From Ochrobactrum sp. BTU1 (GTDB taxonomy: Bacteria > Pseudomonadota > Alphaproteobacteria > Rhizobiales > Rhizobiaceae): a stretch of DNA of 64,000 nt. Shown here piece after piece: positions 8,632-58,502 of the stretch. Below the pieces are notes generated by a model. The model had not been told where the DNA came from. It saw only the letters and a list, made by a program, of their open reading frames with translations, and searched no databases. The DNA lies in NCBI GenBank assembly GCA_018798825.1, contig CP076355.1:1599975-1663974 (forward strand). The letters run 5' to 3'. The position numbers and the translations under genes were made by a program. Numbering within the stretch: the first letter of the stretch is position 1; every line of letters begins with the position of its first letter.

Positions 8632-8731
8632 TGGTTTATGCTTGAATGCCCCATTTTATGCCCCCGAGACTATCCCTTATTCCTCTTGCTGTGCTAAAGC
8701 GACAACGGGGATTTTTAGTAGGGGATGCGTG

Positions 8732-9427
8732 ATGGCCACGATAGATCGCGGGCTTGTCAGAAAACTATCGTTGTTCGCAAAGATGAGCGATGACGAGCTG
8801 GACAAGCTTGTGTCTTACGCCTCAACGCGGCGTGTCGTTCCGGGCGAAACCATTTTTGAACAGGGCGATGATGCCGTCCTGTTCTTTTTGCTGCTTCACG
8901 GCCGCCTCAAGGTTAATCAGGTAACTCCAGACGGACAGCAAATCATCGTTCGCATGGTCCATCCCGGTGACCTATTCGGCTTCGCCAAGGCTTTGCAAAG
9001 GAGCGACTATCCCGGCACGGCAATGGCTGTTGCCGAAAGCATTGTTCTGGCATGGCCAACAGAACTTTGGGACTATTTCGTCGAACAGAATCCTGGCCTG
9101 GCAATGAATGCAATCCAAACCATCGGCAAGCGGCTTGAAGAAGCCCATACCCGAATCCGCGAGATGTCGACCGAGGAAGTTGAGCGTCGCGTTGCACACG
9201 CCGTACTGCGTCTTGCCCGGCAAGCCGGTAAAAAGGAAGAGGATGGTATCCGTATTGACTTCCCCATCACCCGCCAGGATATCGCCGAAATGACGGGCAC
9301 AACGCTGCATACTGTATCGCGTATCCTCAGCAACTGGGAAGGTCAGGGTTTCGTTCGCGGCGGCCGTCAGAAACTAACCGTCATCAGTATGGCTGGCATA
9401 AAGCGTCTTGCCGACGGCAACCCATAA
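8732..9427 (+). CDS. nnrA: Crp/Fnr-family regulator, NnrA/NnrR type
   Basis: A 231-residue transcription factor with an N-terminal cyclic-nucleotide-binding-like sensor domain (PGETIFEQGDDAVLFFLLLHGRLKV) and a C-terminal winged helix (ITRQDIAEMTGTTLHTVSRILSNWE). It lacks the N-terminal Cys cluster of Fnr, which fits the NO-responsive NnrR/NnrA branch. The start at 8732 has AGGGG upstream. Its position behind nirKV and the box sequences before nirK, norC and norE point to it as the local activator of denitrification. Direct NO sensing and targets are inference from the family. Confidence 0.87.
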   Translation: MATIDRGLVRKLSLFAKMSDDELDKLVSYASTRRVVPGETIFEQGDDAVLFFLLLHGRLKVNQVTPDGQQIIVRMVHPGDLFGFAKALQRSDYPGTAMAVAESIVLAWPTELWDYFVEQNPGLAMNAIQTIGKRLEEAHTRIREMSTEEVERRVAHAVLRLARQAGKKEEDGIRIDFPITRQDIAEMTGTTLHTVSRILSNWEGQGFVRGGRQKLTVISMAGIKRLADGNP

Positions 9428-9640
9428 GCTGCAGACTGCTCGATTTTTCATGCGAATGCTCGTTGCGAGCGGTCATTCGTATCTTTTGCTTTGACGATCC
9501 CGCAATTGTCCAAACACCCGGCAAATCATCAAGACCCTCGGCGCGCACGCCTGTAGATCGGATGGCAGATCAGAGCTTCAAAGCGAATGCATTTGAAGCC
9601 GGGTCCAGTCCTCTCCTCCCAAGCAAAAGGATCTACGGCC

Positions 9641-29777: not shown

Positions 29778-30542
29778 TCAGTAAATGATCTCCACCCCTG
29801 CTCTTTCCAACGTTGCATAAACCGCACTTGGCGGCGGCTGATCTGTGATCACCAGATCAATGCCCGATGTTGGCAGGATCGAAAACTTGTCCGATCTTTG
29901 CAGAGCCGTGTGGCTTGCCAGCACGACGAACTTTCTTGTTTGCCGCCGCACCACCTGCGCAAGCTGGAGATGCCTGTCCGACGGCCCAAGCAATCCACGC
30001 TGCACATCAAACCCGCTTGCTCAGGCGACATCAAAAACACGGCGCGAGATGATTTCCATCGCCTCAAAACCGAAGGAAGCACGGGAGCGCTTGTCGAATT
30101 GCCCACCGCAAACCGTAAGATCAGTCTGCCCGCCCATAGACAGGTCGATCATGATATCGACCATCAGCGATGTGGCGATGATGGGTGGTTCGTGACGCGC
30201 CTCCCACGCTGTTGCCAGAGCGGTTGAACCGCCACTGAAAAATACCGACATACCCGGTTAGAGCAATCCATGGGCAATCCGGGCAATTCGCTCCTTGGCT
30301 TCACGATCTGCTCCGATACGCAAGTCAATATGCGGCAGTCCCTTTGCCGTGACGGCACGCGCACCGCCATGCACGCGCATCGCTTGCCCTCTTTCTTCCA
30401 AAGAGGCGAGGTCTCGTCTGATCGTTTCTTCTGAAACCGCGAATATACCGGCGAGCTGCGCGCAAGTGGTATCGCCCTGTCTGATCAGACGATCGCGGAT
30501 CCGATCCTGCCGATCCGATGGTCGAAGAGGTCGTTGTGCCAT
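29778..30542 (-). pseudogene. DeoR-family regulator broken by two in-frame stop codons
   Basis: A 255-codon frame reads as a complete DeoR-type regulator with no frameshift. It has an N-terminal HTH (QLAGIFAVSEETIRRDLASLEERGQAMRVHGGA), a sugar-phosphate sensor part (MSVFFSGGSTALATA, LTVCGGQFD) and a C-terminal part (KFVVLASHTALQRSDKFSIL, IDLVITD). TAA at 30258-30260 (codon 95) and TGA at 30021-30023 (codon 174) interrupt it. The family length is about 255, so nothing else is missing. Its start lies where a truncated HlyD gene ends, and no ribosome site is visible. It may once have regulated the ugp-type transporter whose remnant lies at 32.56-33.09 kb; that is inference. Confidence 0.85.
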
Positions 30543-30564: not shown

Positions 30565-30885
30565 GTCGCGGCAGACCTAACGAACTTACCTCACAGGAAT
30601 ACGACAAAATCTCGCCAAGACGGTCATCAAACGGGCAATTAGCGAGCAAACGGCCCGTCTGGGGTGTGAAGACATGGAGAACACCTGCGCTTGGTACCAC
30701 AGCGCCGAACACCCGGACGCGCCGTGTGTATTCACCAAAGATCAAAACAGCCAGAATGAGCGCGACGATTATTATTCCCATTATGGTGGCGAGCTGCACA
30801 GAAACCGGCTGGATCAAGCGGGGACTGCCAAGCCACGCAGTCTGCTGGGAAGCCACGGAATGGGTTCTAAATAGTGAATTGTTAA
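30565..30885 (-). pseudogene. Truncated HlyD-type secretion membrane-fusion gene
   Basis: The minus strand encodes LFRTHSVASQQTAWLGSP, then a membrane helix (LATIMGIIIVALILAVLIFG) and EYTRRVRVFGAVVPSAGVLHVFTPQTGRLL. This is the N-terminus of HlyD/CvaA-like adaptors for peptidase-containing ABC exporters of double-glycine peptides. Resemblance fades near VSSLGLP (about 30565), just before the deoR-type start, so some 300 C-terminal residues are lost. No proper start codon remains before LFR; a GTG at 30856 is the first. It follows the peptide-partner cassette on the same strand and suggests that the cassette once had its own exporter. Confidence 0.75.
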
Positions 30886-31050
30886 TATTGTAACTTTCAA
30901 TTTCTTAAGTGAAGCCAGAAAAAAAGTAGTGTTTAATTCACCTCTATTGTCTTTTTCAGAAAATCACTCAAACAACGAATGGATTTCGATGTCTTCCTGC
31001 CTGTTGAGCTTGTGCAGCGGTTTAGATACTGGTGTTGATTTCGAATCCCG

Positions 31051-31944
31051 TCAGCACTTCCTCGGAAAAATATCATTAAAATCTGGTCTGAAATATACTT
31101 CTCGTGAGATTTTTTCTATTTCATTGAATTTATTTCTTATATAATCCAGATGATAATCCATCTCCATCGGAACTATGTTCTCTTTTTGTTTTGGCCTATA
31201 AAGAGAATAAAGAAACATAACATCTAGCAGACACAGGTTCGGTGACTGACGTTTATGCTTCAACACGAAATCCCCGCTTAATTCGGGGGGAAGAGTAGTA
31301 AGAGGAGACTTCAATGAAGTTGGATATTTTTGAAGATGCTCAGTATTACTCACACCTGTGAGCATCTGAAATACACTTTTTTCAATAAGCTCATTACGTA
31401 AATTTCCTGCGAACATATCCATCTCAGGGCCTAAGCTTGGCAGATCAATAAATATGTAATCCGTTCCCTGACCACCAATTTTGAACTTCATAAAAGCGAG
31501 TGGGTTTGGGCTTGATAGAGCCGTAGCGCTGTATCCTTGAATGCGATCAACAAAATCCAATTTATCTTGCAGGCTCTGATGACTGTCGTCTGCTTTACTG
31601 CGAAAATTTAGGTAAATAAGGCTGTCGTTTGGACAATCCTGGACTGTCTTTCTAAAGAAAGTTCTTACATTTAGATTCGTAATTCTATTGATCGCGTATG
31701 TAAAAAGCGAAACTTTATCAAAGTCTGACGCTGTAGCGCTCCCAGCGACGCACATTATTCTGTTGGATGTCCACCTGAGGACGAGCTCGCGACCCTTTAC
31801 CGTTTGCGTGTAAACAGCCGACTTAAAAAACGAGACCAATTCCGATTTGGATAGCCCCTCTTGAGCTGCTGCTCCAATCGTTGAGCATAAAAGTGATATC
31901 CCAACTAAAATGCAGGTAAGGGTGCTTTTGCTAATTTTTAACAT
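31051..31944 (-). CDS. Secreted DUF2927-like partner of the GG-leader peptide (copy 1)
   Basis: 297 residues with a clear Sec signal (STLTCILVGISLLCSTIGAAAQE, cleavage near 28). The mature part holds CPNDSLIYLNFRSKADD in the middle, NLCLLDVMFLYSLYRPKQKEN toward the end, and the C-terminus FRPDFNDIFPRKC. The C-x-x-D-x-x-x-L-x-x-LY pattern recalls DUF2927, a family of exported proteins of unknown role; I offer this as resemblance only. A paralogue of similar plan lies at 52117-53052, and both follow a VSGG-leader peptide gene. The AT-rich composition differs from neighbours. Possible roles are immunity, maturation or delivery of the peptide; none is shown. Confidence 0.82.
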   Translation of the reverse strand: MLKISKSTLTCILVGISLLCSTIGAAAQEGLSKSELVSFFKSAVYTQTVKGRELVLRWTSNRIMCVAGSATASDFDKVSLFTYAINRITNLNVRTFFRKTVQDCPNDSLIYLNFRSKADDSHQSLQDKLDFVDRIQGYSATALSSPNPLAFMKFKIGGQGTDYIFIDLPSLGPEMDMFAGNLRNELIEKSVFQMLTGVSNTEHLQKYPTSLKSPLTTLPPELSGDFVLKHKRQSPNLCLLDVMFLYSLYRPKQKENIVPMEMDYHLDYIRNKFNEIEKISREVYFRPDFNDIFPRKC

Positions 31945-32002
31945 TCGCCATCGCTTTAATTATACAGCCTCGTTCTTTAAAGAGGCTGCAATCATCCTGC
32001 CG

Positions 32003-32344
32003 TCAGTTATGGCTGCTGCCGCCGTGCGCTTCACGTGGTTTAACACTTATGCTTCCACTGATCCCCGGCACCCCAACCTGAACACCCACGCTATCAACCA
32101 CCCAACCATCTTTCGATAGACGTGGTTTTTTATCAGCTTCTCCACTAGGAAGAACTACATAGCCAGTGACGCCATCGCGATTAGTCTGATAAGCAACCGA
32201 ATGGCCTCGATCACCACCCGCACTGTCAGATCTGCCACCGCCATCTCGGCTGATGCTAATTGTATCAAGATGCGTGGACCCATCTTTGTCGGTGTAATGT
32301 CCGCCAGACACCATCATCATTTCTTCAATTGTCAACACACGCAT
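32003..32344 (-). CDS. Double-glycine leader peptide, colicin-V-like export signal (copy 1)
   Basis: 113 residues. The N-terminus MRVLTIEEMMMVSGG is a classic double-glycine leader, close in pattern to the colicin V leader (MRTLTLNELDSVSGG). Cleavage after GG would free a 98-residue Gly/Ser/Asp-rich peptide, HYTDKDGSTHLDTISI..., ending in GGSSHN and without Cys. The ATG at 32344 has GGAG 6 bases upstream; an in-frame TTG at 32356 is unlikely. The partner gene starts 58 bases downstream. A paralogous peptide is encoded at 53049-53420. Export would need a peptidase-type ABC transporter, which is absent from the window apart from the HlyD remnant. Confidence 0.83.
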   Translation of the reverse strand: MRVLTIEEMMMVSGGHYTDKDGSTHLDTISISRDGGGRSDSAGGDRGHSVAYQTNRDGVTGYVVLPSGEADKKPRLSKDGWVVDSVGVQVGVPGISGSISVKPREAHGGSSHN

Positions 32345-32520: not shown

Positions 32521-32561
32521 GTTTCCAACGTATGCCAAGCGCTTTGGCCAACCGCTTTGCC

Positions 32562-33087
32562 CACATTGACGTGGAGCCTGACCCTCGCGCATCGTCTTGT
32601 CGTGTTAAACAAGGGCAGTATCGAGCAGATCGGAACTCCGCTTGAGTTTTATCACAATCCAGCCTCGACTTTTGTTGCGAGCTTTATCGGTTCACCAGCC
32701 ATGAACCTCCTCAACGCCCGGCTCGACGGCAACCGTCTGATGATCGATGAAGCGGTTCTGCAGCTTTCAGGCAGTCTTCCCTCATACGATTCTCTCACAG
32801 TGGGCATCAGGCCGGAGGATCTTGTCTTGGCCCAGAATGGTGAGAACCCACTTAGTTTCATGCTCGATCATGTTGAAGAACTCGGCGCCCAGCGCCTCGT
32901 TCATGGTATGGTTGGCGAGCAGCGGATAACTGCAGCCTTTCCGCCTCAGCTCCCGATCAGCGACCATATGCAATTGACGGCAGCCGTCGATAAGCTGCAT
33001 TTTTTCAGTGCGGACACCGGCAAGCGGCTGATTACAGCCGCAAGTCAGGTTGTTTCGCAGAATATATCAAGCCTGTCGCTCGTATGA
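32562..33087 (+). pseudogene. ugpC: Remnant of a UgpC/MalK-type ABC transporter ATPase
   Basis: The frame from 32575 reads LTLAHRLVVLNKGSIEQIGTPLEFYHNPASTFVASFIGSPAMNLL, then a TOBE-like C-terminal domain with SLTVGIRPEDL. This is the last 170 residues of a UgpC-type importer ATPase. The Walker A, signature and Walker B parts are missing, and the junction just before ACCCTCGCGCAT looks like a decayed version of the usual VTHDQVEAMTLAHR with short deletions. No ribosome site or normal start is present. The stop overlaps the end of the convergent LysR gene. Confidence 0.85.
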
Positions 33088-52116: not shown

Positions 52117-53052
52117 TTAGCAATTATTCTTAAAAATGTCTCGATATCTAGGGTTATTCTGAACTTCCGATGACGATTTTAATATATTTTTGTAGTTAAA
52201 TTTTATGTACTTGATGTAATTTTCTAGAGTTCCATTCAATATAGATTGGTCTTTCGCATAAACAATCTTCATTAACATTATGTCATATAAACACATATTA
52301 GGGACATTTAGCTTGAATCTCTCACCCATACTATCAACTGATAAACTGTCAGTATCTATACTAGAACCGGGGAAATCACGTTCTTCTATAATTGATTTAG
52401 GCTTCCTGTTTATTTTTTTGTCAGGAACAGCCAATAGAATCTGAAATAACAATTTTTGTATTACATTTCTAGAAATATCTTCATTTAGATATTCAGCAAT
52501 ATTTATGTCTTCATTTATTGCTGCGTAAGCCCGAGGTTCTTTTCCTTTATTATATATTATTTTTCCAAATCCATAATTATCGTAATTACTATTGAAATCG
52601 TTTAATCCATATCTATTAAGTATAAAAGATAAATCCCCGACTACTGTCGATAGAGCACTTTTCTGCCCACGATGGAAGAAAACATATAAAAATGTGTCGC
52701 TAGAACAGTTAGCAGTACCTTTTTCGAAATGAATCTTTGGCGAAATCCATGTTTCCCTACGAACTATTTCGAAGAAGGATTCCACCCACTTTTTAGTTCT
52801 CGCCATCTCATTTCCATACACGCAAACACTCAAATCGGAGGGCAATCGGTTGAGCTTAAAATGTGTTGGTTTTTCTGGGGCTAAAACTTCCACAAAGAAG
52901 TTTATGAATTTTTTTTCTTCATTTTGATTACTATGTACCGCCATTAAAATAGTAATCACAGCAATGGACGTGACCGCCACCAACGCAGCCACATATTTTT
53001 TCTGAAGTACTATCAGTTTGGGGTAGATCACGGATGCCCTAATTTTGATCAA
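52117..53052 (-). CDS. DUF2927-like partner of the GG-leader peptide (copy 2)
   Basis: 311 residues. An N-terminal membrane anchor (YVAALVAVTSIAVITILMAV, about 20-39) is followed by a periplasmic domain with CSSDTFLYVFFHRGQK in the middle, NMCLYDIMLMKIVYAKDQS near the end, and the terminus NPRYRDIFKNNC. These blocks align in order with copy 1 at 31051-31944, though overall identity looks low. The DNA is strikingly AT-rich against its surroundings. The only early start is a TTG whose last base pair is shared with the upstream stop (TTGA), so translation depends on the peptide gene. The function is unknown. Confidence 0.8.
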   Translation of the reverse strand: MIKIRASVIYPKLIVLQKKYVAALVAVTSIAVITILMAVHSNQNEEKKFINFFVEVLAPEKPTHFKLNRLPSDLSVCVYGNEMARTKKWVESFFEIVRRETWISPKIHFEKGTANCSSDTFLYVFFHRGQKSALSTVVGDLSFILNRYGLNDFNSNYDNYGFGKIIYNKGKEPRAYAAINEDINIAEYLNEDISRNVIQKLLFQILLAVPDKKINRKPKSIIEERDFPGSSIDTDSLSVDSMGERFKLNVPNMCLYDIMLMKIVYAKDQSILNGTLENYIKYIKFNYKNILKSSSEVQNNPRYRDIFKNNC

Positions 53053-53420
53053 TGAGCACCGCCGCTACTTCTTTCACTCCCGCCTGCACTTTTTCCACCG
53101 CGTCCACCATATGGATCATGGCATGACATGCAATCAATGGAGCTGTTCACTGAGATGCCGCCCGTCCCCAAGCGTACACCCAGTCCCGATGAAATGTGTC
53201 CGGCGACATGTCCAAATGTGCTACCCCAGGTATCCTTAGTACCGTCACGGTTCCGTTTGTCTGCACGATTGACTCTATCTCCGTCTGAACCCGAACCATT
53301 TGTTGCGCCCCGTGAACCTGTATAACCACGACCGCCACCATAGTTGGAGCCATCTTTAGCATCCAGGCTTCCGCCGCCGCCTGACACAATCATCATTTCT
53401 TCAATCGTCAGTTCACGCAT
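53049..53420 (-). CDS. Double-glycine leader peptide, colicin-V-like export signal (copy 2)
   Basis: 123 residues. MRELTIEEMMIVSGG differs from the copy 1 leader at two positions and matches the double-glycine consensus of exported microcins. The mature part of about 108 residues is rich in Gly, Ser, Arg and Asp, shares blocks with copy 1 (AKDGS, RNRDGT, GISV) and ends in SSGGAH. Unlike copy 1 it carries DCMSCHDP, a Cys pair that could form a disulfide or bind metal. GAGGATT precedes the ATG. The partner gene overlaps its stop. No exporter gene lies nearby. Confidence 0.83.
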   Translation of the reverse strand: MRELTIEEMMIVSGGGGSLDAKDGSNYGGGRGYTGSRGATNGSGSDGDRVNRADKRNRDGTKDTWGSTFGHVAGHISSGLGVRLGTGGISVNSSIDCMSCHDPYGGRGGKSAGGSERSSGGAH

Positions 53421-53752
53421 AATCCTCTCCCACTATGCTTAAACAAAGCAGAATGATAGCAATCATATAATTTCTAAAACATCCTATTTTAGAGGTCCCT
53501 ACTTCCCTAAGGATCGGCCTCGCCTCATAAATCGCGCTGTCGGGTCCGCTTTATTTGGATCGACCAAAGACTCAGACAGCATTGCCCAGCCCTTAGCGCT
53601 CCCGCGCAATCTGGTGTAGGCGGGTTATGTCTCATATTCACTTCAGCTTCTGTATTTTCACTGCAAAGTGGTGACTGATTGAAGTCTATTCGAATGGCGG
53701 TTCATTTCAAAAACGGCATTTTACTAAAGTGTCATCCGTCATGCCGCCAGAC
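53421..53752. other. Intergenic region right of the second peptide cassette
   Basis: 332 bases. The left part is AT-rich and should hold the peptide promoter. No gene, repeat or integrase trace is seen in the rest. Confidence 0.45.
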
Positions 53753-56257: not shown

Positions 56258-57451
56258 ATGAATATCGCAAGTAAAGCAGAGCAAGTGTCGTTTGACGACA
56301 TGATATTGACGCAAGGTCGAGAGATCTCGCGCAAGCTCAATCTGCTGCGTCATGAAAACTTCCCGCCAGATGCGCGCAAGAATTTGCGTCAATTCTCTAT
56401 GGCAGAAGCTGCCTATTTCCTTGGTGTGTCTCCGAGCAATTTGAAAAAGCTGCATCTGGAAGGAAAAGGTGTTGAGCCGATTATCCTTTCGGGTGGACGT
56501 CGCGCATATACGATTGAACAGCTGCAGGAACTGCGTCAGTGGCTCGATCAGAATGGCCGCGCCGAGGTAAAGCGTTATGTTCCGCATCGCCGCGGCAACG
56601 ACAAACTGCAGGTCATCGGCGTTGTGAACTTTAAAGGTGGTTCAGGCAAGACGACGACAGCTGCGCATCTGGCGCAGCATCTCGCCCTCACCGGCCATCG
56701 CGTCCTTGCAATCGATCTCGACCCGCAGGCTTCGCTGTCCGCCTTGCATGGTATTCAGCCAGAGCTCGATGAGTTTCCGTCGCTCTACGAAGCTGTTCGC
56801 TATGATGAGCAGCGCAAATCGATCCGAGAAATCATTCGCAAGACCAATTTCCCTGGTCTCGACATCATCCCTGCAATGCTGGAGCTGCAGGAATATGAAT
56901 ACGACACACCGCTTGCCATGCAGAACGGCGGCGAAGGCAAAACCTTCTGGAACCGTATTGCTGTAGCGCTTGCCGAGGTGGATGCCGATTATGATGTTGT
57001 CGTCATCGATTGCCCGCCGCAGCTTGGCTATCTGACGCTGACCGCCCTTTCGGCCGCTACATCAGTTCTCATCACGGTTCACCCGCAGATGCTTGATCTT
57101 ATGTCGATGTCGCAGTTCCTGCTTATGCTGGGCGACATCCTCAAGACAGTTCGTCAGGCTGGTGGTGCTGTGCAGCTCGATTGGTTCCGCTATCTGATCA
57201 CGCGCTATGAGCCGACAGATGTTCCTCAGGCCCAAATGGTTGGCTTCATGCAGAGCATGTTGGCATCTCACATGCTTAAGCATCAGATGCTGAAGTCAAC
57301 AGCTATATCAGATGCAGGTCTCACCAAACAGACGCTCTATGAGGTTGAGCGCTCTTCGATGAACCGCGGAACTTATGATCGCGCTATGGAAGCACTAGAG
57401 GGGGTTAACTCGGAAATTCGTGGACTTATTCACGAGGCCTGGGGTCGTTAG
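56258..57451 (+). CDS. repA: RepA, ParA-like partition ATPase of the repABC replicon
   Basis: RepA is the Walker-type ATPase that segregates the replicon and represses the operon. 397 residues: an N-terminal HTH-like part (FSMAEAAYFLGVSPSNLKKLHLEGKG), then the deviant Walker A GVVNFKGGSGKTTTAAHLAQ (about 121-140), LAIDLDPQASLSAL, and VVIDCPPQLGYLTL. Length and plan fit chromosomal RepA proteins. repB starts 64 bases after its stop. A candidate RepB site overlaps the stop codon. Confidence 0.96.
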   Translation: MNIASKAEQVSFDDMILTQGREISRKLNLLRHENFPPDARKNLRQFSMAEAAYFLGVSPSNLKKLHLEGKGVEPIILSGGRRAYTIEQLQELRQWLDQNGRAEVKRYVPHRRGNDKLQVIGVVNFKGGSGKTTTAAHLAQHLALTGHRVLAIDLDPQASLSALHGIQPELDEFPSLYEAVRYDEQRKSIREIIRKTNFPGLDIIPAMLELQEYEYDTPLAMQNGGEGKTFWNRIAVALAEVDADYDVVVIDCPPQLGYLTLTALSAATSVLITVHPQMLDLMSMSQFLLMLGDILKTVRQAGGAVQLDWFRYLITRYEPTDVPQAQMVGFMQSMLASHMLKHQMLKSTAISDAGLTKQTLYEVERSSMNRGTYDRAMEALEGVNSEIRGLIHEAWGR

Positions 57452-57463
57452 ACGGCAGTCTAA
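57448..57463. promoter_or_regulatory. Candidate partition site at the repA stop codon
   Basis: TTAGACGGCAGTCTAA includes the repA TAG. Its 14-base core is the exact reverse complement of the site at 56053-56066, so two inverted copies flank repA. Confidence 0.55.
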
Positions 57464-57515
57464 ATCGCAAAATATGGAATAAAATCAGGCTTATGGCTGA
57501 TTTGAGGGTAAAAGA

Positions 57516-58502
57516 ATGGCACGGAAGAACATTTTTCAGAGCGTTATGCAGACCGAAGAAACGGAAGAAAACTCCGCGTCTCCAGTCGAAAATGTTTCGC
57601 GCCGCTTTGGTGCTGCAAAGTCACTCTCTGCGTCTATCGATGAACTCGCAAAGCAGGCCTCTCAAAAGCTCGATGGGGAAGCAATTGTCGAGCTCGATCC
57701 TTCCGATCTTGATGGATCTTTCATTGCTGATCGCCTGCCTGAAGCCGATGATCAGGAATATGCAGAGCTTTTGGAAGCGGTTCGCGAACGCGGGCAGGAT
57801 AGCCCTATTCTGGTGCGCCCACACCCTCAGACCAGCGGTCGCTATATGATCGTTTTCGGTCATCGCCGCGCTAAAGTTGCTGGTGAGCTCGGCATCAAGG
57901 TGAAGGCTGTTATCAAGCCGTTAGCCGATCTTGAGCATATTATAAGCCAGGGCCAGGAAAACTCCGCGCGTGCCAATCTCAGTTTCATAGAGCGCGTTCT
58001 CTTTGCCGCTCGGCTCGAGGAACTGCAGTACAGCCGTGAAGCCATCCAGGCTGCTCTTTCTATCGACTACCAGACATTGTCGAAGATGCTGACCATTCCA
58101 CGTTCGATATCGGAAGACATGCTGGTGGCGATTGGACCGGCAAAAGGCATCGGGCGTGACCGCTGGCTCGAATTGCGCAAACTCATTGAAATGCCGGGAA
58201 AGCCAGAAGCTGCACGTGAACTAATGCAAACCGATGCCTTCAAGGAAGCATCGTCGAGTACGCGTTTTGAACAGCTTTATGGTTACCTCAAAGGGGCAAA
58301 TCAAAAGAAGCCGGTTACGAAGGCCGCATCGCGGACTGGTTCGACCTGGAGTGCGGCTGACAAAAGCGTGAGTGCAACGATCAAACAAAACGGCAAGACA
58401 GCGACACTGGCGCTTAGCGCTGCCAATGGTCCTCGCTTTGCCGATTGGATTTCGCGCAATCTGGATGAACTTTATGCGTCATTCAGTGCCGATGAGAAGT
58501 GA
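57516..58502 (+). CDS. repB: RepB, ParB-like centromere-binding protein
   Basis: 328 residues. After a basic N-terminal part comes the ParB/Spo0J domain with RGQDSPILVRPHPQTSGRYMIVFGHRRAKVAGELG and GQENSARANLSFIERVLFAARL, then an HTH region (SREAIQAALSIDYQTLSKMLTI). RepB binds parS sites and works with RepA in segregation. The start has GAGGG upstream. It is the middle gene of the repABC operon. Confidence 0.95.
   Translation: MARKNIFQSVMQTEETEENSASPVENVSRRFGAAKSLSASIDELAKQASQKLDGEAIVELDPSDLDGSFIADRLPEADDQEYAELLEAVRERGQDSPILVRPHPQTSGRYMIVFGHRRAKVAGELGIKVKAVIKPLADLEHIISQGQENSARANLSFIERVLFAARLEELQYSREAIQAALSIDYQTLSKMLTIPRSISEDMLVAIGPAKGIGRDRWLELRKLIEMPGKPEAARELMQTDAFKEASSSTRFEQLYGYLKGANQKKPVTKAASRTGSTWSAADKSVSATIKQNGKTATLALSAANGPRFADWISRNLDELYASFSADEK

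Follow-up and report, generated by a model that had tools for sequence, protein, structure and literature searches.

Class II microcins of the colicin V type and the Cdz system of Caulobacter are the closest described counterparts of the locus analyzed here. In the accessible text of PMC9746304, confirmed class II microcin immunity proteins have 51-216 amino acids (aa), and the cinful pipeline keeps immunity candidates of 30-250 aa. Cdz combines type I secretion and glycine-zipper cargo with an immunity protein, CdzI, that has three predicted membrane helices (PMC5380434, accessible text). Here we describe two cassettes, each made of a gene for a small glycine-rich peptide and a gene for a partner protein of about 300 residues, in a stretch of 64,000 nucleotides (nt) from Ochrobactrum sp. 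BTU1. This stretch, called the window throughout, spans positions 1599975-1663974 and lies at the right-hand end of a contig of 1.66 Mb (CP076355.1, here C2). The cassette is real, conserved and rare. Its predicted mode of export is of a known kind, that of class II microcins and Cdz, and what is new is an exported-peptide system with an unexplained partner for which a metzincin-like fold is predicted.

Organization of the two cassettes

The two pairs comprise the following open reading frames (ORFs) and leader, in window positions.

32003-32344, minus strand: peptide 1 precursor, 113 aa, called from its ORF, a leader pattern with a zero-match control and similarity to peptide 2
32300-32344, minus strand: leader of peptide 1, MRVLTIEEMMMVSGG, of the double-glycine type
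31051-31944, minus strand: partner 1, 297 aa, with a signal-like N-terminal segment, four family cysteines and no HExxH
53049-53420, minus strand: peptide 2 precursor, 123 aa, with leader MRELTIEEMMIVSGG, an NRDGTKD block and a CMSCHDPY motif
52117-53052, minus strand: partner 2 (P0003), with an N-terminal membrane anchor and four conserved cysteines (structure model me120e96ced99)

The peptide 1 ORF has 113 codons plus a stop, and 98 residues remain past the double glycine (GG) of its leader. Partner 1 starts 58 nt downstream of peptide 1 and has a single hydrophobic N-terminal segment with an A-A-A/Q cleavage site, identified by eye. The gene order of pair 2 is that of pair 1, the peptide followed by the partner. 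Partner 2 has one hydrophobic, anchor-like segment at its N-terminus and a length of 311 aa from a TTG start or 304 aa from a GTG at 53031; its earliest possible start overlaps the stop of peptide 2. The two partners share 24% identity over 250 columns (E 2e-12), and the two peptides 34% over 119 columns (E 5e-8). All four genes are uninterrupted ORFs. The first-pass annotation had placed at the first site a peptide with a GG leader and a 98-residue mature part, followed by an exported partner of about 300 residues, and had seen the pair recur at 52-53 kb. Each of these points is borne out: both ORFs lie at that site, on the minus strand, with the leader and mature length described; the partner has the stated length and an N-terminus in keeping with export; and the second pair is a diverged copy at 52.1-53.4 kb.

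Conservation of the pairing

GTDB merges Brucella and Ochrobactrum; NCBI keeps Ochrobactrum as a separate genus in the Brucellaceae. A partner profile matched 2 of 35 genomes of the genus, 4 of 394 of the family and 2 of 397 of the order, the last two being the genome under study and one weak partial match. Carriers among named genomes are Ochrobactrum sp. CM-21-5 (L014), Rhizobium herbae HU44 (L012), Nitratireductor aestuarii (L013) and Phyllobacterium salinisoli (L015). In all four, a small glycine-rich ORF lies directly upstream of the partner. Together with the two window pairs, the order of peptide then partner is found at 6/6 partner loci read, in agreement with the co-occurrence of the two genes proposed earlier. 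This count leaves out partners P0002 and P0005. In all, eight distinct partners are considered: P0003 is window partner 2 and is counted once, as are the partners of G021, G317 and G290, which are identical to those of L014, L012 and L015, respectively. The peptide and partner of G021, a member of the genus group (locus L017), have the sequences found in Ochrobactrum sp. CM-21-5, which places the genome of the window in the Brucella/Ochrobactrum group.

Partner family and predicted fold

By profile comparison with the L022 protein (probability 97.3%, E 2.8e-11, 236 columns), the partner falls into an unnamed superfamily of alphaproteobacterial proteins, in which it forms a rare branch. The superfamily alignments drew on 23 of 120 listed homologues in one case and 44 in another. 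Four cysteines and one aspartate are invariant in 52/52 sequences of partners plus superfamily, and both window partners retain all four cysteines, so that two disulfides are likely in the partner. The HExxH zinc motif is present in none of the 52 sequences. The sister family has an EELxQ motif, and the glutamate at that helix is retained in 4 of 8 partners. A good structure model of partner 2 predicts a metzincin fold with a long N-terminal helix. Because partner 2 is modeled in this way, partner 1, of the same family, is probably metzincin-like as well. An earlier model built from nine sequences (pLDDT 50.5) was not used. A sequence search for relatives in the PDB gave none at E <=0.1 covering the partner. 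Weak partial matches of partner 2 to VapC and KEOPS proteins fell far under the cut-offs, and these identities were rejected.

The sister family P0006-P0125 is large, and the 23 members scanned had no notable Pfam match. By homology, a dead-metzincin fold is predicted for this family too. At the one sister locus read, no paired glycine-rich peptide was found upstream.

The assignment of the partner to DUF2927, made in the first-pass annotation, has to be given up on the profile evidence. PF11150 (cut-off 26.2 bits) gave no match up to E 10 for the two window partners and six others, and none in the whole genome of the window. Profile-profile comparison of the partners with DUF2927 gave probabilities of 21.9%, for the N-terminus only, and 4.9%; with 29 DUF2927 sequences, it gave 1.6-2.5%. 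These sequences are the exact matched stretches from 29 of 33 loci, four at contig ends or incomplete having been dropped. All 29 evaluable stretches carry an EExxQ motif, which also occurs in the sister family of the partner; fold class and this motif may yet tie the partner remotely to DUF2927. Two listed members of the L022 superfamily are labelled DUF2927 domain-containing in UniRef.

Peptides and their leaders

The leader was searched with a degenerate DNA pattern modeled on the leaders of this genome after they had been seen. Among 35 genus genomes, three contain the pattern, at 7 sites in all, and none contains its reversed control, so the leader exceeds chance. Four of the sites belong to the window's genome: the two window pairs, a site on contig C4 and another on C2 at a distance of about 0.2 Mb. 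G021, at the locus that corresponds to L014, has two, and G012 has one. The leader of the paired peptides has the form MRxLTxEEM..VSGG, which we take to resemble the colicin V leader. In G012, the leader (L037:1500-1527) stops after MRELTLEEMM, and a transposase-like ORF adjoins it, as judged by eye. Weak matches to Mersacidin and cerein profiles were confined to the leader and were rejected.

An NRDGT block and the motif C[GM][SG]CHDPY recur in 5 of 6 peptides (peptide 2 and those of L012-L015); peptide 1 is free of cysteine and lacks the C-x-x-C-H-D-P-Y motif. This motif, present once, resembles a heme-c attachment site, and no Sec-type signal was seen in the peptides that bear it. The leader-bearing paired peptides are glycine/serine-rich and have no membrane-like segment at the threshold used. 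Their GxxxG counts are 2 in peptide 1, 8 in peptide 2 and 14 in the L014 peptide, the latter two sets scattered as a result of glycine content, versus 17 and 18, in long runs, in the C2 and C4 peptides; by this comparison, the paired peptides are not glycine-zipper cargo.

The C2 and C4 peptides are two further GG-leader peptides of the same genome (L010:12030-12446 and L011:7947-8312). They have glycine-zipper runs, a common C-terminal SGGREKGGGDSGGRG and a small hydrophobic ORF after each. The glycine-zipper GG peptides of C2, C4 and L014 are all followed by a hydrophobic ORF of 56-77 aa with one or two predicted membrane segments. At L012, a small zipper-like ORF (9438-9626) without Pfam match lies near the pair.

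A 29-nt stretch upstream of peptide 2 is identical to one upstream of the L014 peptide, and 34/36 nt match at the G012 remnant. The stretch contains an inverted repeat with 7-nt arms.

53469-53493, minus strand: inverted-repeat element upstream of peptide 2, TCTAAAA-N7-TTTTAGA

No second copy was found in the window at <=3 mismatches, and the same upstream comparison found the element missing from peptide 1. A common operator for the peptide 2, L014 and G012 loci is a reasonable guess.

Exporter genes and their match to the leader

The genome has an ATP-binding cassette (ABC) exporter gene with a C39 peptidase domain that scores over the cut-off, together with an HlyD gene; a glycine-zipper GG peptide lies just upstream. 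This locus (L010) is on the same contig, about 211 kb from pair 1.

L010:7697-9788: C39 ABC exporter gene, in two ORFs in different frames
L010:9785-11107: full HlyD (PF13437, E 2e-15)
30644-30892 of the window (ORF from 30856 downward), minus strand: N-terminal fragment of an HlyD-type membrane fusion protein, called from identity to full HlyDs

A frame change splits the ABC gene into ORFs of 444 and 258 aa. At L014 the related gene is one ORF of 697 aa, with which the pieces share 88% and 80% identity, respectively. The frame change may be a true lesion or a sequencing error. The HlyD remnant reported earlier next to pair 1 is indeed there: over 86 residues it shares 70% identity with the L014 HlyD (residues 9-94), and over 71 residues 73% with the full HlyD of this genome. 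The latter identity suggests that pair 1 probably once adjoined its own exporter. A tblastn search of the window with two ABC and two HlyD proteins gave only two matches, this fragment and, at 36.1-36.8 kb, the ATPase domain of a different ABC gene. By this search, the window cargo has no type I secretion genes within about 10 kb; such genes are present at that distance at L014 and L012.

An ABC exporter gene lies beside 3 of the 6 loci: L014, L012 and, in part, L015. L014 has a leader-bearing peptide and an intact C39 exporter. At L012, the neighbors are an HlyD gene and a 562-aa ABC protein without C39 match, which aligns with the L014 exporter only from residue 164. The neighbor at L015 is the first part of an ABC gene of the L012 kind (68% identity over 125 aa), running into IstB-like sequence. 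No exporter was seen by eye within 8 kb at L013. The double-glycine leader is present in peptides 1, 2 and L014 and absent from the other three homologous peptides (L012, L013 and L015), which have an in-frame stop 3-4 codons upstream of the start. Leader and C39 domain thus go together at 3/3 loci with an adjacent ABC gene, and that leader loss tracks C39 loss is, from these three loci, a lead and not proof. We read the leaderless peptides as a changed export route rather than a refutation, because the ABC genes adjoining two of the leaderless loci also lack the C39 domain.

C39 matches were found in all five distinct carrier genomes tested, in Rhizobium weakly (E 1.1e-8). Strong matches occur elsewhere in the genomes of Nitratireductor and Phyllobacterium, whose peptides are leaderless. 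Ten other C39 loci, five from genus genomes and five from carriers in other genera, were scanned to a distance of 1.5 kb with a GG-leader regular expression, which matched at none of them. Small ORFs with GG-like leaders, and without the partner, lie near C39 exporters in two genus genomes (L044:2350-2931 and 8685-8900; L045:4381-4560). At L014, two peptides of different kinds adjoin one exporter, an arrangement that fits a multi-cargo bacteriocin island.

Genomic setting

Gene pieces lie on either side of pair 1: a 94-aa fragment with a helix-turn-helix of the DeoR type and the C-terminus of an ABC ATPase of the MalK type.

30258-30542, minus strand: DeoR-type helix-turn-helix piece
32557-33087, plus strand: MalK-type C-terminal piece

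Gene pieces on both sides suggest a hotspot of insertion or deletion. ParA-type and RepB-type partition genes at window positions 56258-58502, near the contig end, point to a repABC-type replicon. Neither partner matched plasmids, and one peptide pattern sought in viral contigs gave no match. A defense system was rejected as a reading, with no PADLOC match among five proteins.

Proposed function and alternatives

Our preferred reading, held tentatively and at somewhat less than even confidence, is that the cassette is a cargo and self-protection pair of type I (ABC/HlyD) peptide export, as in class II microcin or Cdz systems. The C39 exporter would cleave the leader after GG and export the mature glycine/serine-rich peptide, which would act on competing cells. 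The partner would face the periplasm and bind its cognate peptide, probably in the groove used for substrates in the metzincin fold; since it has no zinc motif, it would capture the peptide instead of cutting it. It would then be an oversized immunity protein on a dead metzincin fold. The immunity role is suggested by position: the small hydrophobic ORFs downstream of the zipper peptides mark a putative immunity slot, and the partner holds that slot. Pair 1, its local exporter lost, would depend on the distant exporter with the split ABC gene. More doubtful is the fuller proposal that a zinc-less metzincin serves as periplasmic immunity or capture protein and that the C-x-x-C-H-D-P-Y peptides are a new cargo class switching between GG/C39 and leaderless/C39-less export. 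Of the first-pass interpretation, the leader, the pairing, the exported or anchored partner and, albeit with a split ABC gene, a C39 exporter in the genome find support, and DUF2927 membership does not.

Several observations speak against a self-protection pair. The adjacent transmembrane immunity protein of 51-216 aa expected for a class II microcin is missing, the partner having one N-terminal hydrophobic segment. Three of the homologous peptides are leaderless, an outcome named beforehand as refuting. With the C39 ABC gene split, working export in this strain is not assured. Finally, the partner exceeds any confirmed microcin immunity protein in size. This size, together with the two likely disulfides from four invariant cysteines, would also suit an accessory of export or surface display (a periplasmic chaperone, tether or sorting receptor) for a peptide that is a surface protein, adhesin or signal. 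The exporter genes at half of the loci and the glycine/serine-rich peptides without membrane-like segment are in line with such a role. However, no such partner adjoins the zipper peptides, which share the leader and the exporter, and one-to-one pairing with joint divergence of the local pairs (24% between partners) better fits toxin-immunity turnover. We consider an accessory role unlikely.

Still less probable, in our view, is that the pair here no longer functions and is what is left of a mobile bacteriocin island in decay. Pair 1 lies amid fragments (the HlyD N-terminus and the DeoR and MalK pieces), the C39 ABC gene is split, the G012 leader ends after ten residues beside a transposase-like ORF, and just 2 of 35 genus genomes have the partner. 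Yet both partners and both peptides are uninterrupted, the four family cysteines are retained, and peptide 2 has a conserved upstream element. Patchy presence is, moreover, usual for bacteriocins according to the accessible text of PMC5380434. An enzymatic partner, active now or formerly, that trims or modifies the peptide might be suggested by the predicted fold and by a peptide CxxCH motif open to modification, but we consider it very improbable: HExxH is absent in 52/52 sequences, the sister-family glutamate is kept in only half of the partners, and inspection by eye showed no further conserved enzyme gene next to the pairs.

If the cassette is a cargo and self-protection pair, a dead protease fold has been recruited to neutralize or hold a bacteriocin-like peptide. 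Hyphomicrobiales would gain a cargo class that is overlooked wherever immunity candidates are capped in size (at 250 aa in cinful), since its partner exceeds the cap. The cargo family would also offer a natural comparison, as some members have a GG leader and others none, and the matching exporters likewise have or lack C39.

Comparison with known systems

A literature search, mostly outside subscription journals, found no description of a GG peptide paired with a metzincin-like partner of about 300 aa, and nothing on DUF2927 or on double-glycine bacteriocins of Ochrobactrum. In a search for metzincin immunity proteins of bacteriocins, the word occurred solely in a reference. The accessible parts of PMC9746304 and PMC5380434 describe no metzincin-fold partner, and those of PMC13174018, on microcin mining, contain no Ochrobactrum, Rhizobi- or Brucella.

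The cassettes share with class II microcins the double-glycine leader, an HlyD and a C39 ABC in the genome, the latter with its gene split, and the order of peptide then downstream candidate protector. They differ in a partner of 297-311 aa, predicted to be metzincin-like, versus 51-216 aa (PMC9746304, accessible text), in the C-x-x-C-H-D-P-Y motif of 5/6 peptides and in their leaderless relatives. Features in common with Cdz (CdzABCDI) are type I secretion, which is predicted here, a small cargo whose leader ends in G[G/A/S], and a separate gene for immunity, here putative (PMC5380434, accessible text). As in cdz, exporter and cargo genes are divergent at L012 and L015, and both L014 and this genome, outside the cassettes, have glycine-zipper GG peptides. 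In contrast to Cdz, the paired peptides have no zipper run comparable to the C2 and C4 peptides, and the partner is not a three-helix membrane protein. The L022 superfamily shares with the partner the profile match and the invariant cysteines and aspartate; it differs in having no upstream glycine-rich peptide at the one locus read, and half of the partners have lost the EELxQ glutamate. From metzincins such as MMP-7, karilysin and archaemetzincin, the partner family is set apart by the missing HExxH, the long N-terminal helix of the model and the four conserved cysteines, whereas the predicted fold of the partner is theirs.
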